A stretch of DNA of 64,000 nucleotides from Cupriavidus pauculus (GTDB taxonomy: Bacteria; Pseudomonadota; Gammaproteobacteria; Burkholderiales; Burkholderiaceae). Below the pieces are notes generated by a model. It saw nothing but the letters and a program-made list of their open reading frames with translations. It had not been told where the DNA came from and did not search any database. The stretch is from contig NZ_CP033969.1 in the NCBI RefSeq assembly GCF_003854935.1, positions 558,001 to 622,000 of the forward strand, read 5' to 3'. Made by a program: the position numbers and the translations under genes. Position 1 is the stretch's first letter. Each line of letters opens with the position of its first letter. Shown here piece by piece: positions 4,371 through 60,913 of the stretch.

Positions 4371-4908
4371 GGGAGCCAGGCCAGCGTTTTCGCTGAGTTT
4401 TCGCTGGGTTTTCGCTCCCCTCTCCCGCCTGCGGGAGAGGGGTTGGGGGAGAGGGCCGGCGTGTCGAGATGCCACGGCGGCTGTTTGCACCGCCTTGCCC
4501 TCTCCCCCGGCCCCTCTCCCGCGATGCGGGAGAGGGGAGAAACCCGGGAGCCAGGCCAGCGTTTTCGCAGGGTTTTCGCTCCCCTCTCCCGCCTGCGGGA
4601 GAGGGGTTGGGGGAGAGGGCCGGCGTGTCGGGATGCCACGGTGGCTATTTGCACCGCCTTGCCCTCTCCCCCGGCCCCTCTCCCGCGATGCGGGAGAGGG
4701 GAGAAACCCGGGAGCCAGGCCAGCGTTTTCGCTGGGTTTTCGCTCCCCTCTCCCGCCTGCGGGAGAGGGGTTGGGGGTGAGGGCCGGCGTGTCGAGATGC
4801 CACGGCGGCTGTTTGCACCGCCTGGCCCTCTCCCCCGGCCCCTCTCCCGCGATGCGGGCGAGGGGAGAAACCCGGAGCCAGGCCAACGTTTTCGCTGGGT
4901 CTTCGCTC
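4371..4908. repeat. Tandem array of 164-bp palindromic units (units 1-3 and the edge of unit 4)
   Basis: Three nearly identical units begin at 4417, 4581 and 4745, a period of 164 bp. Each unit has a first hairpin (CCCCTCTCCCGC / GCGGGAGAGGGG), a second stem formed by TTGGGGGAGAGGGC pairing with GCCCTCTCCCCC around a 40-bp loop, and a second hairpin with the same arms around GATGC. A linker with GAAACCCGGGAGCCAGGCCA and copies of TTTTCGCT follows. The array continues after the insertion sequence at 6162. It lies between convergent genes (helicase and dctD). No gene is seen here. Confidence 0.9.
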
Positions 4909-4975
4909 TGTGCTGGTCTAATTTCCTCAGACACGTCGATAGGTGGACAATCACGATCGACGAGGAAAGGACGAC

Positions 4976-5272
4976 ATGACAAGGCAACGTCGCAAGTTTG
5001 ACCCCAGCTTCAAGCTGGAGGTCGTCAAGATGATCCGGGACCAGGGGGTTTCGGTGACCGAGGTCTGCCACACGATGGCCATTGGCGAGACGGCTGTACG
5101 GCGCTGGCTGGCCCAGTACGACGCGGAGCTGGCCGGCGGCAAGGGCATCGGCAAACCGCTGACGCCCGAGCAGCAGCGCATCCGTCAGCTTGAGGAAGAG
5201 AACCGCCGCCTGAAGGAGGACAATCTGATCCTAAAAAAGGCATCGGCCTTCTTTGCCCGCGAACTGAAGTGA
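4976..5272 (+). CDS. IS3-family transposase OrfA (helix-turn-helix protein)
   Basis: A 98-residue protein starting [20 protein letters not shown], an HTH_Tnp_1-type DNA-binding domain, followed by a leucine-zipper-like segment ([20 protein letters not shown]). The ATG is preceded by a strong GAGGAAAGG ribosome-binding site. The sequence A AAA AAG at 5233-5239 lies in the zipper end and is a classic -1 frameshift site. Slippage there fuses OrfA to OrfB to give the OrfAB transposase. OrfA alone normally binds the ends and modulates transposition. Confidence 0.93.
5233..5239 (+). other. Programmed -1 ribosomal frameshift site (AAAAAAG)
   Basis: Six A residues followed by G, read as CTA AAA AAG in the OrfA frame. 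A -1 slip enters the frame of OrfB, which stays open from here through its own GTG/ATG start at 5269/5272. This is the standard way IS3 elements make OrfAB. Confidence 0.75.
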
Positions 5273-6153
5273 TGTACGAAGCAGTGAGCGCGCTGGCGAA
5301 GAAGGCGGTGTCGGTGAGTCGAGCTTGCAGGGCGCTGGCGGTGAGCCGCGCGGGCTTTTACGCGCACCGGCGTCGGCCTGCGCAGACGCCAAGGCAGGCC
5401 CGGGAGCGGGCCCATGTGAGAGCGGCATTCGAGCGCAGCGGACGCAGCTATGGCAGTCGTCGGCTCGCCCGGGAAGTGAGCCGCGGCGGCGTGAAGATGG
5501 GACGCCACCGCGCCCGTACCCTGATGCGCCAGGAGGATCTGCGCACGGTCTGGAAACGCAAGTTTGTGGCGACGACAAACAGCCGGCATGACCGTCCGGT
5601 CGCCCCGAACGTGCTGGCTCGGCAGTTTGCGCCGGCCAGGCCAAATCAGGCGTGGGTCTCGGATATCACCTATGTGCGTACAGCCGAAGGCTGGCTGTAC
5701 GTGGAAGTGGTGCTGGATCTGTATTCGCGTAAGGTGGTGGGCTGGTCGATGGCGCCAAGCATGCCCGCGACGCTGATCGTCTCGGCGCTGCAGATGGCGA
5801 TTCAGCATCGCCGGCCGGAGCCGGGACTGATCGTGCATTCGGACAGGGGTAGCCAGTACGCGAGCGAGGAATACCAGTCGCTGCTCAGACGCCACGGACT
5901 GGTCTGCAGTATGAGCCGGCTCGGAGACTGCTGGGACAACGCGGTGGCCGAGCGCTTCTTCCTGAACCTGAAGATGGAGCGCATCTGGCAGAAACGTTAC
6001 GTCGACCGGGCCGAAGCCCGGCGCGACATCACGCAGTACATCGTGGGGTTTTACAACCCGGTGCGTTTGCACTCGACGCTCGGGTACGCCTCACCGCAGG
6101 AATTCGAGGACAAGCTTTATCGACAACCTATCGGGGTGTCTGAAAAAACTTGA
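5269..6153 (+). CDS. IS3-family transposase OrfB (DDE integrase catalytic domain)
   Basis: A 294-residue rve-type integrase domain. An N-terminal HTH_21-like part ([20 protein letters not shown]) leads to the DDE catalytic core: first Asp in WVSDITYV, second Asp in VHSDRGSQY, and Glu in DNAVAERFF, followed by the usual W/K/R-rich end ([13 protein letters not shown]). All three catalytic acids are present, so the enzyme should be functional as the OrfAB fusion. The start overlaps the OrfA stop (GTGATG). The stop codon lies within the right inverted repeat. Confidence 0.94.
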
Positions 6154-6161
6154 CCAGTACA

Positions 6162-60047: not shown

Positions 60048-60148
60048 GCTTTGCTTATCCCTCATGTGGTCGCGCGTGCCCATCCTCAAGCCGGGCACGC
60101 CGCGTTCGTTTGTCTCAGATGTCTGATCGCCGGCCATTATTGCACGCC

Positions 60149-60757
60149 ATGCCCCCGACCCAAGCCCCGGACAACGGCCCGGACGCCCGCCAATTCCCCG
60201 CCGACACCGACCGCCGCACCCTGCGGCGCGACCTGCTGGCGCTGCGCGCCGCGCTGCCCGACCGCGCCGCCTGCGACGCCGGCATCGACCAGGCCCTTGG
60301 CCCCCTGCTGGAACGTCTGGGCGTGCGCCGGATCGGGTTCTACTGGCCGATCCAGCAGGAATTCGACGCCCGCGCCACGGTGACCCGCTGGCTCGCCGGC
60401 CTGCCCGGCCGCACTGCCGCACTGCCCGTGGTCTCGGCCCCCGGCACCCCGCTCGACTTCCACGCCTGGACGCCGGACACGCCGATGCGCGCCGGCCACT
60501 ACGGCATTCCGGTACCCGACGGCACCGACGCCGTGACGCCCGACGCGCTGCTCATTCCCTGTGTCGGTTTCAGCGCCGACAAGTTCCGCCTGGGCTACGG
60601 CGGCGGCTTCTACGACCGCACGCTGGCCGCGCTGGCCGCCCAGGGCGCCACGCCGGTGGCCATCGGCATCGGCTACGAAGCGTGCCGCATCCCGCTGGCT
60701 GCGCAGGCGCACGACCTGCCGATGGACTGGGTGGTGACGGAACGGGGGGTTTGGTAG
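60149..60757 (+). CDS. 5-formyltetrahydrofolate cyclo-ligase
   Basis: A 202-residue protein. RRDLLALRAALPD is the usual N-terminal helix, and LLIPCVGFSADKFRLGYGGGFYDRTL is the signature with ATP- and folate-binding residues. It turns 5-formyl-THF to 5,10-methenyl-THF with ATP. ATG 60149 gives a normal N-terminus; the frame also has an ATG at 60119. In E. coli this is YgfA/Fau. It converges on metF, another one-carbon gene, across a palindromic repeat. Confidence 0.92.
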   Translation: MPPTQAPDNGPDARQFPADTDRRTLRRDLLALRAALPDRAACDAGIDQALGPLLERLGVRRIGFYWPIQQEFDARATVTRWLAGLPGRTAALPVVSAPGTPLDFHAWTPDTPMRAGHYGIPVPDGTDAVTPDALLIPCVGFSADKFRLGYGGGFYDRTLAALAAQGATPVAIGIGYEACRIPLAAQAHDLPMDWVVTERGVW

Positions 60758-60789
60758 GGGGGCCAGCCGACTGACGCCGCTGGCTGGCG

Positions 60790-60913
60790 CCCCTCTCCCG
60801 CGACGTGGGATAGGGGCTGGGGGTGAGGGCGTCGAGGATCTGCCTGCCGACAGGTGGCAGTTTGAAGCGCCATGCCCTCACCCCCGACCCCTCTCGCGCG
60901 CGCGGGAGAGGGG
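60790..60913. repeat. Intergenic three-hairpin palindromic repeat (single copy)
   Basis: The first hairpin is degenerate (CCCCTCTCCCGCGACGTGGG, 60790-60815), the inner stem is TGGGGGTGAGGGC / GCCCTCACCCCC and the second hairpin is at 60888-60913. The inner loop GTCGAGGATCTGCCTGCCGA resembles the copies at 15760 (minus strand) and 54729. It lies between the convergent cyclo-ligase gene and metF. Confidence 0.86.

Follow-up and report, generated by a model that had tools for sequence, protein, structure and literature searches.

In a 64,000-nucleotide stretch of the Cupriavidus pauculus genome (G000:C2:558001-622000, on contig NZ_CP033969.1; hereafter the window, from a genome of 6.18 Mb in four contigs), a G/C-rich palindromic repeat, which has multiplied in this genome, lies shortly past the ends of genes, above all between convergent genes. 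Judged by its sequence, it is an extragenic repeat resembling repetitive extragenic palindromes (REPs) and built from the known BoxC/PIT/TM motif. The basic half-unit is a short hairpin followed by a third strand, and two inverted half-units often form a dimer. The element is probably a mobile repeat which is tolerated by the genome and used as a bidirectional 3′-end hairpin. We put the probability at roughly 0.5 that this symmetric repeat acts in that way, through Rho termination, trimming and protection of 3′ ends.

Placement was scored in 81 stretches of the same genome (1.664 Mb, window included), the first 41 of which had a G+C content of 66%. An even spread of copies over tandem and divergent gaps, the outcome against which the first-pass annotation had staked its interpretation, is refuted, since the element was found in 32/187 convergent, 24/858 tandem and 0/195 divergent gaps. 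The first junction of the window, split by an insertion sequence (IS), was counted once as tandem and once as convergent. Among gaps of at least 78 bp, the occupied fractions were 28/71, 23/402 and 0/184, respectively, and none of the 247 motif matches lay within a called gene. Outside the window the counts were 27/179 convergent, 21/819 tandem and 0/187 divergent (Fisher p = 9e-10 for convergent versus tandem, 1e-9 for convergent versus divergent and 0.02 for tandem versus divergent). Of the 66 convergent gaps there that reach 78 bp or more, 23 contained the element, as did 27 of the 127 with at least 20 bp remaining after its removal. Tandem gaps show the same polarity, with 22 of the 24 clusters closer to the upstream stop, one closer to the start and one equidistant. 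The bias towards 3′ ends is thus strong and beyond chance.

A replicate of 0.90 Mb, made up of blocks from 13 same-genus genomes and of three stretches, unannotated in their record, from Cupriavidus sp. EM10, gave 15/129 convergent, 31/470 tandem and 0/128 divergent gaps, with one of 95 matches in a gene. Loci with Cupriavidus in their title (32, of which two were dropped) held 26 placed copies, 12 convergent, 14 tandem and none divergent, plus five at edges; the gaps of at least 78 bp in this set numbered 15, 67 and 23, respectively. Loci of other titles had 3 convergent, 14 tandem and 1 divergent copies, with 1 in a gene and 4 at edges, which is weak evidence, as coding coverage under the Cupriavidus-trained model was too low in 25 of those 48 loci, which were left out.

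The distance from the stop codon to the element had quartiles of 25, 33 and 58 nt (n = 88); in element-free gaps, the corresponding quartiles for intrinsic terminators were 26, 36 and 70 nt (n = 147). In this respect the element resembles a bidirectional intrinsic terminator, in which a hairpin some 35 nt past the stop serves both convergent genes. Unlike such a terminator, it has no T-tract, and mostly A-rich sequence follows the hairpin on its 3′ side. Only 1 of 135 hairpins was followed within 8 nt, on either strand, by four or more T, while 93 of the 135 were followed by A-rich sequence, and the hairpin was therefore rejected as an intrinsic (Rho-independent) terminator.

Separate terminators are scarce where the element is present. 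The contrast was measured on the largest element-free piece of each gap, since two short flanks cannot hold a terminator. For pieces of at least 60 nt in our genome, a T-tract terminator was found in 4/15 convergent gaps with the element versus 38/56 without it (p = 0.007), and in all data combined in 4/19 versus 59/95 (p = 0.002). A cruder, geometry-biased measure gave 7/22 versus 38/56; in a simulation on that measure, uniform random insertion would have left terminators in 56% of the occupied gaps (P = 0.017).

The putative bidirectional 3′-end role suggested when the window was first annotated is supported by the placement, the distance from the stop, the absence from divergent gaps and the scarcity of separate terminators. 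In the mechanism that we propose, a symmetric hairpin ∼30 nt past the stop would be carried simultaneously by both transcripts of a convergent pair. As it has no T-tract, this hairpin alone would probably not terminate transcription. Instead, Rho would end transcription downstream of the element, 3′-to-5′ exonucleases would trim the transcript back to the hairpin, and the hairpin would then form and protect the mature 3′ end of both transcripts. We favour Rho termination followed by trimming because a Rho gene is present in the genome and Rho-dependent 3′ ends are reported to be extensively trimmed in Bacillus subtilis (PMC12350095). The sequences themselves supply the placement, the stop distance, the missing T-tract, the terminator scarcity, the kept pairing and the presence or absence of copies across species; from these we infer Rho dependence, trimming, protection, and selection for function, rather than mere tolerance, as what would keep the copies in place.

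The repeat copies in the window are real and lie at the sites first given for them (4415-6448, 15758, 26918, 50880, 54655/54727, 60790 and 62219). They are as follows, with the strand stated where one applies.

4415..4537: dimer 1 of the array, two inverted triplex-motif half-units with linkers TT and CC
4579..4701: dimer 2 of the array
4743..4865: dimer 3 of the array
4909..6161, + strand: IS3-type insertion sequence within the array (HTH_Tnp_1 orfA 4976-5272, rve orfB 5269-6153), CTC at both flanks
6162..6284: dimer 4 of the array
6326..6448: dimer 5 of the array
15758..15881: dimer in a tandem gap, core reversed in orientation
26918..27040: dimer in a convergent gap, compensated C-G to T-A change in the right hairpin
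50880..50905: lone degenerate hairpin in a convergent gap
54655..54696, + strand: partial, degenerate half-unit adjoining the dimer at 54727
54727..54852: dimer in a convergent gap
60790..60913: dimer in the convergent gap between the 5-FTHF cyclo-ligase and MTHFR genes
62219..62256, − strand: hairpin remnant in a tandem gap, directly 3′ of the S-adenosylhomocysteine hydrolase gene

The five units originally described at 4417-6455 are indeed five dimers of ∼123 bp, but the description lacked the IS3-type element which divides the array 3+2. In a DNA search in which 40 of 132 first-look candidates were scored, this IS had one genomic match, the window copy. Its position between repeat units is in line with reports that IS3-family elements target REPs (PMC1525189). 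By our gene calls, made with a home-made finder, the window does contain eight convergent junctions, and the element is present in each of the five that span 78 bp or more and missing from the three that span 14 bp or less; the first of the five was scored as running from the IS gene to the gene that follows it. An Rfam scan of the window returned two matches only, both unrelated to the repeat: a tRNA at 44209-44279 on the − strand (RF00005, 41.2 bits) and an S-adenosylhomocysteine (SAH) riboswitch at 63836-63908 on the − strand (RF01057), upstream of the SAH hydrolase gene. The gap that carries the hairpin remnant (62167-62283) is at the opposite end of that gene from the riboswitch.

Orthologous junctions allow occupied and empty sites to be compared. 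Both genes flanking the 234-bp junction at 54638-54871 are adjacent in 12 of the 13 same-genus genomes compared; nine of these 12 relatives are empty, with gaps of −18 to 43 bp, and three hold the element, with gaps of 109-166 bp. Presence and absence at one junction in different species reflects gain or loss of the element. The apparent rule relating occupancy to gap length is partly circular, as each copy adds its own length to the gap. The median length of occupied convergent gaps is 195 bp, and once the element is subtracted a median of 89 bp is left. Since empty orthologous gaps are short and the element makes the gap, gap length was rejected as independent support. At the junction downstream of ahcY (62167-62283), 11 of 13 relatives have a consensus-type hairpin, whilst the remaining two depart from this: the hairpin of G427 is strong (19-bp helix) but unlike the others in sequence, and that of G006 is only weak.

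The half-unit has the form CCCCTCTCCCGC-loop-GCGGGAGAGGGG-YY-GGGGG[A/T]GAGGGC, in which a 12-bp hairpin (CCCCTCTCCCGC / GCGGGAGAGGGG) is joined by a linker of two pyrimidines to a third strand mirroring the purine arm. In 75 half-units, drawn from the first 41 stretches, the third strand was near-invariant except at one A/T position (46 A, 28 T, 1 C). Two inverted half-units 39-44 nt apart make up a dimer (31 dimers), ∼125 bp in total, around an asymmetric and partly conserved core of ∼40 nt (for example, GTTGAGG.TCTGCTTGCCGAC ... TTTGAACCGC), which recurs, in one orientation or the other, in some of the copies. In a larger sample, 88 of 112 half-units belonged to dimers; dimer arrays, single hairpins and single half-units are also present.

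Pairing in the hairpin has been preserved, contrary to what would have told against the first interpretation. Among distinct hairpins, double changes were complementary in 7/13 cases in our genome, 8/15 in relatives and 37/55 in other named loci, as against ∼2.3, ∼1.5 and ∼5.4 expected if the two sides changed independently. The hairpins and the partly conserved core of the three-hairpin cruciform that had been proposed do exist. However, the three-hairpin form is exceptional among predicted single-strand folds: for four dimers folded on both strands (z from −6.5 to −12.5), the minimum-energy fold was one long concentric hairpin in seven of eight DNA folds and all eight RNA folds.

The two linkers of a dimer tend to be of opposite type. 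After collapsing arrays to 30 dimers, and excluding one for a purine, position 1 was opposite pyrimidine in 26/29 own dimers (p = 1.6e-5 against independence) and position 2 in 25/29 (p = 1e-4). Both positions were opposite in 4/4 dimers from relatives (two of six excluded for a purine), and in loci L073-L198 (six of 17 excluded for the same reason) position 1 was opposite in 11/11 (p = 0.005) and position 2 in 9/11 (p = 0.14, not significant). The A/T position of the third strand showed no such opposite-pairing rule between dimer halves. The linker rule may mean that a mismatch is always kept in the long stem, or that the dimers descend from a single heterotypic ancestor through reshuffling by inversion. 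If linkers were swapped between the arms in this way, the pairs would stay opposite, consistent with the similar frequencies of the four opposite combinations (7, 6, 6 and 5 of 30). Unit length and inner core are particular to each of the local arrays at L014-L016, L063 2482-3365 and L065 16735-17192, which suggests tandem amplification within a site and not repeated insertion.

By sequence, the half-unit is the known BoxC/PIT/'TM' intrastrand-triplex motif. The order of pyrimidine arm, purine arm and mirror purine third strand was found in all 75 half-units, and likewise in named loci of several phyla, matches were almost wholly intergenic in both samples, and two linker types are combined in inverted pairs. 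In all these features, as well as in the A/T-variable position of the third strand and in its wide, patchy spread, it agrees with the class II purine type motif TM (TMECO) as described in the main text of PMC4666352. The dimer linker rule extends the report of Holder et al. (2015) that five Escherichia coli pairs each join type A with type B (PMC4666352). The differences lie elsewhere. There are 182 hairpins in this genome (at most three mismatches), as against 23 motifs in E. coli K-12 (PMC4666352), and the dimers here have a partly conserved ∼40-nt core and occur in arrays. In addition, the element is found here 3′ of genes, convergent gaps first and none divergent in our sample, whereas in E. 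coli it lies upstream of genes more often than downstream (PMC4666352); the word 'convergent' is absent from the main text of that paper. Among the papers listed by our literature search, which did not extend to supplements or the ITxF tables, none dealt with the motif in Cupriavidus or with its convergent placement.

The first-pass suggestion of a REP-like element was right in appearance, but did not recognise the half-unit as the published motif (PMC4666352). Like REPs, and the BIMEs and REPINs formed from them, the element consists of short palindromes in inverted pairs and clusters, is extragenic, is frequent between convergent genes and is a target of IS3-family insertion, in so far as those systems are described in PMC3733652 and PMC1525189. 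Unlike GTAG- or CGTC-tagged REPs, it has no conserved foot tag and no associated gene for a REP-associated tyrosine transposase (RAYT) was found; inspection by eye of the 14-nt flanks of 54 hairpin pairs did not reveal a GTAG or CGTC tag, the flanks being typically ..GCT / AG(C/A)AAA... Compared with miniature inverted-repeat transposable elements (MITEs), inverted ends and empty sites are present, and no partner was found among Y1 genes, the sole class searched.

The motif is widely but very unevenly distributed. Titles among the matches listed for the exact 26-nt core include Cupriavidus, Pseudomonas, Rhodanobacter, Luteimonas, Chloroflexota, Fimbriimonadales, Pirellulales, Bipolaricaulota and others. 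With at most two mismatches the core was found in 87 of 399 genomes sampled from the order, and with at most three in 23 of 24 genomes of the genus, our own included; G018 had none, although one hairpin match was nonetheless found within a block of that genome. Within our genome, matches numbered 115 in 45 stretches of contig C2, 92 in 27 stretches of C3 and 40 in the window. Contigs C1 and C4 (∼0.3 Mb each; L053, L365-L367, L054 and L362-L364) had none in eight stretches totalling 160 kb, and may be separate or recently acquired replicons.

Mobilisation by an unlinked transposase, as once suggested for the repeat, found no support for the RAYT/Y1 class, the only one searched. The motif was absent from the fetched flanks (up to ∼1.5 kb per side) of all 31 Y1 loci, comprising L051 from our genome and 30 other loci; further listed matches came without a locus. 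The one Y1 transposase gene found in our genome (L051:1444-2283) is RAYT-like, and the gene directly upstream of it is one that we take to be a dGTP triphosphohydrolase. Each of seven same-genus genomes searched had one Y1 match, six of them motif-rich and the seventh G018, without the core. Y1 matches were commoner in motif-rich genomes (28/30 versus 16/28, p = 0.002), these genomes having been chosen after the motif counts were seen. CGTC REPs have also been reported without a RAYT gene.

It is possible, if rather doubtful, that the element is simply a selfish or neutral repeat of REP or MITE type, which lands anywhere, survives only where it is harmless, behind genes, and has no 3′-end function. 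Such a repeat would account for the orthologous sites that are empty, for the patchy variation of copy number among species and for the exclusion from divergent gaps and genes, and in other bacteria, too, REPs have been reported to be common at convergent junctions (PMC1525189). However, by itself it does not predict that separate terminators should be scarce in the occupied gaps, that the distance from the stop should match that of terminators, or that one orthologous site should retain a hairpin even where its sequence is compensated or different.

Some mobile elements insert into terminator hairpins. Were the element to insert preferentially there and destroy them, the scarcity of terminators would reflect target choice. 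This would account for the element having the same position as terminators and, on the cruder measure, for a scarcity beyond that of uniform random insertion; at the junction at 50847-50924, T-tract hairpins were seen by eye in several relatives without the element. At 54638-54871, in contrast, the empty gaps of at most 43 bp show no T-tract hairpin to the eye, so that there was probably no terminator to hit, and neither a target duplication nor a transposase was identified. We consider this explanation improbable. A DNA-level role, with an intrastrand triplex or cruciform acting on replication, supercoiling (as a gyrase-type site) or rearrangement, is very improbable: the third strand is near-invariant, and the E. 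coli motif is reported to form a triplex in vitro and to be linked to instability (PMC4666352), but at certain occupied sites there is a single hairpin and no third strand, and where that strand is present its second A never varies (75/75 half-units) although a T-A-T triplet would be allowed there.

Several points weigh against a bidirectional 3′-end role. The element had been held to fill every convergent gap, which fails beyond the window, 155 of the 187 convergent gaps being empty; as most lack it, the element is not required there. Purifying selection against insertions elsewhere would explain the placement without any function. In E. coli the motif is commoner upstream than downstream of genes, and PIT elements lacked terminator activity there in earlier work cited in the same paper (both PMC4666352). 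The terminator contrast varies with the data and the piece length: it was not significant in relatives alone (at least 60 nt, 0/4 with the element versus 21/39 without, p = 0.11) or for pieces of at least 100 nt (3/11 versus 28/50, p = 0.11), there was no difference for pieces of 40-60 nt in all data (2/9 versus 5/22), and on the geometry-biased measure the first 41 stretches gave 6/22 versus 20/36 (p = 0.056). A T-tract terminator-like hairpin, seen by eye at ∼15697-15728, precedes the dimer at 15758, and a terminator and a dimer can therefore coexist. The double changes in our own genome are few (n = 13), and the folding signal on the ahcY side is modest in several species (z of −1.3 to −6.4, against single-base shuffles). 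Finally, both the gene finder, a Markov model trained on 391 long open reading frames, and the terminator finder were home-made, and the relatives have junctions in common, so that their counts are not independent.

More tentatively, the bidirectional 3′-end hairpin could be the outcome of domestication, in which a horizontally spread triplex repeat would have become, in Cupriavidus, a general bidirectional 3′-end module replacing T-tract terminators at convergent genes. Its palindrome would be kept by compensated changes, and its dimers would keep heterotypic linkers, at which the long stem would therefore seldom pair. The BoxC/PIT/TM motif has a wide distribution among bacteria, and its function is left open in the main text of PMC4666352. 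A genome in which the motif lies at a steady distance past genes, where it seemingly replaces terminators, gives it a role that is directly testable, and the contrasts between single hairpins and dimers, together with the element-free orthologous junctions, would serve as natural controls.

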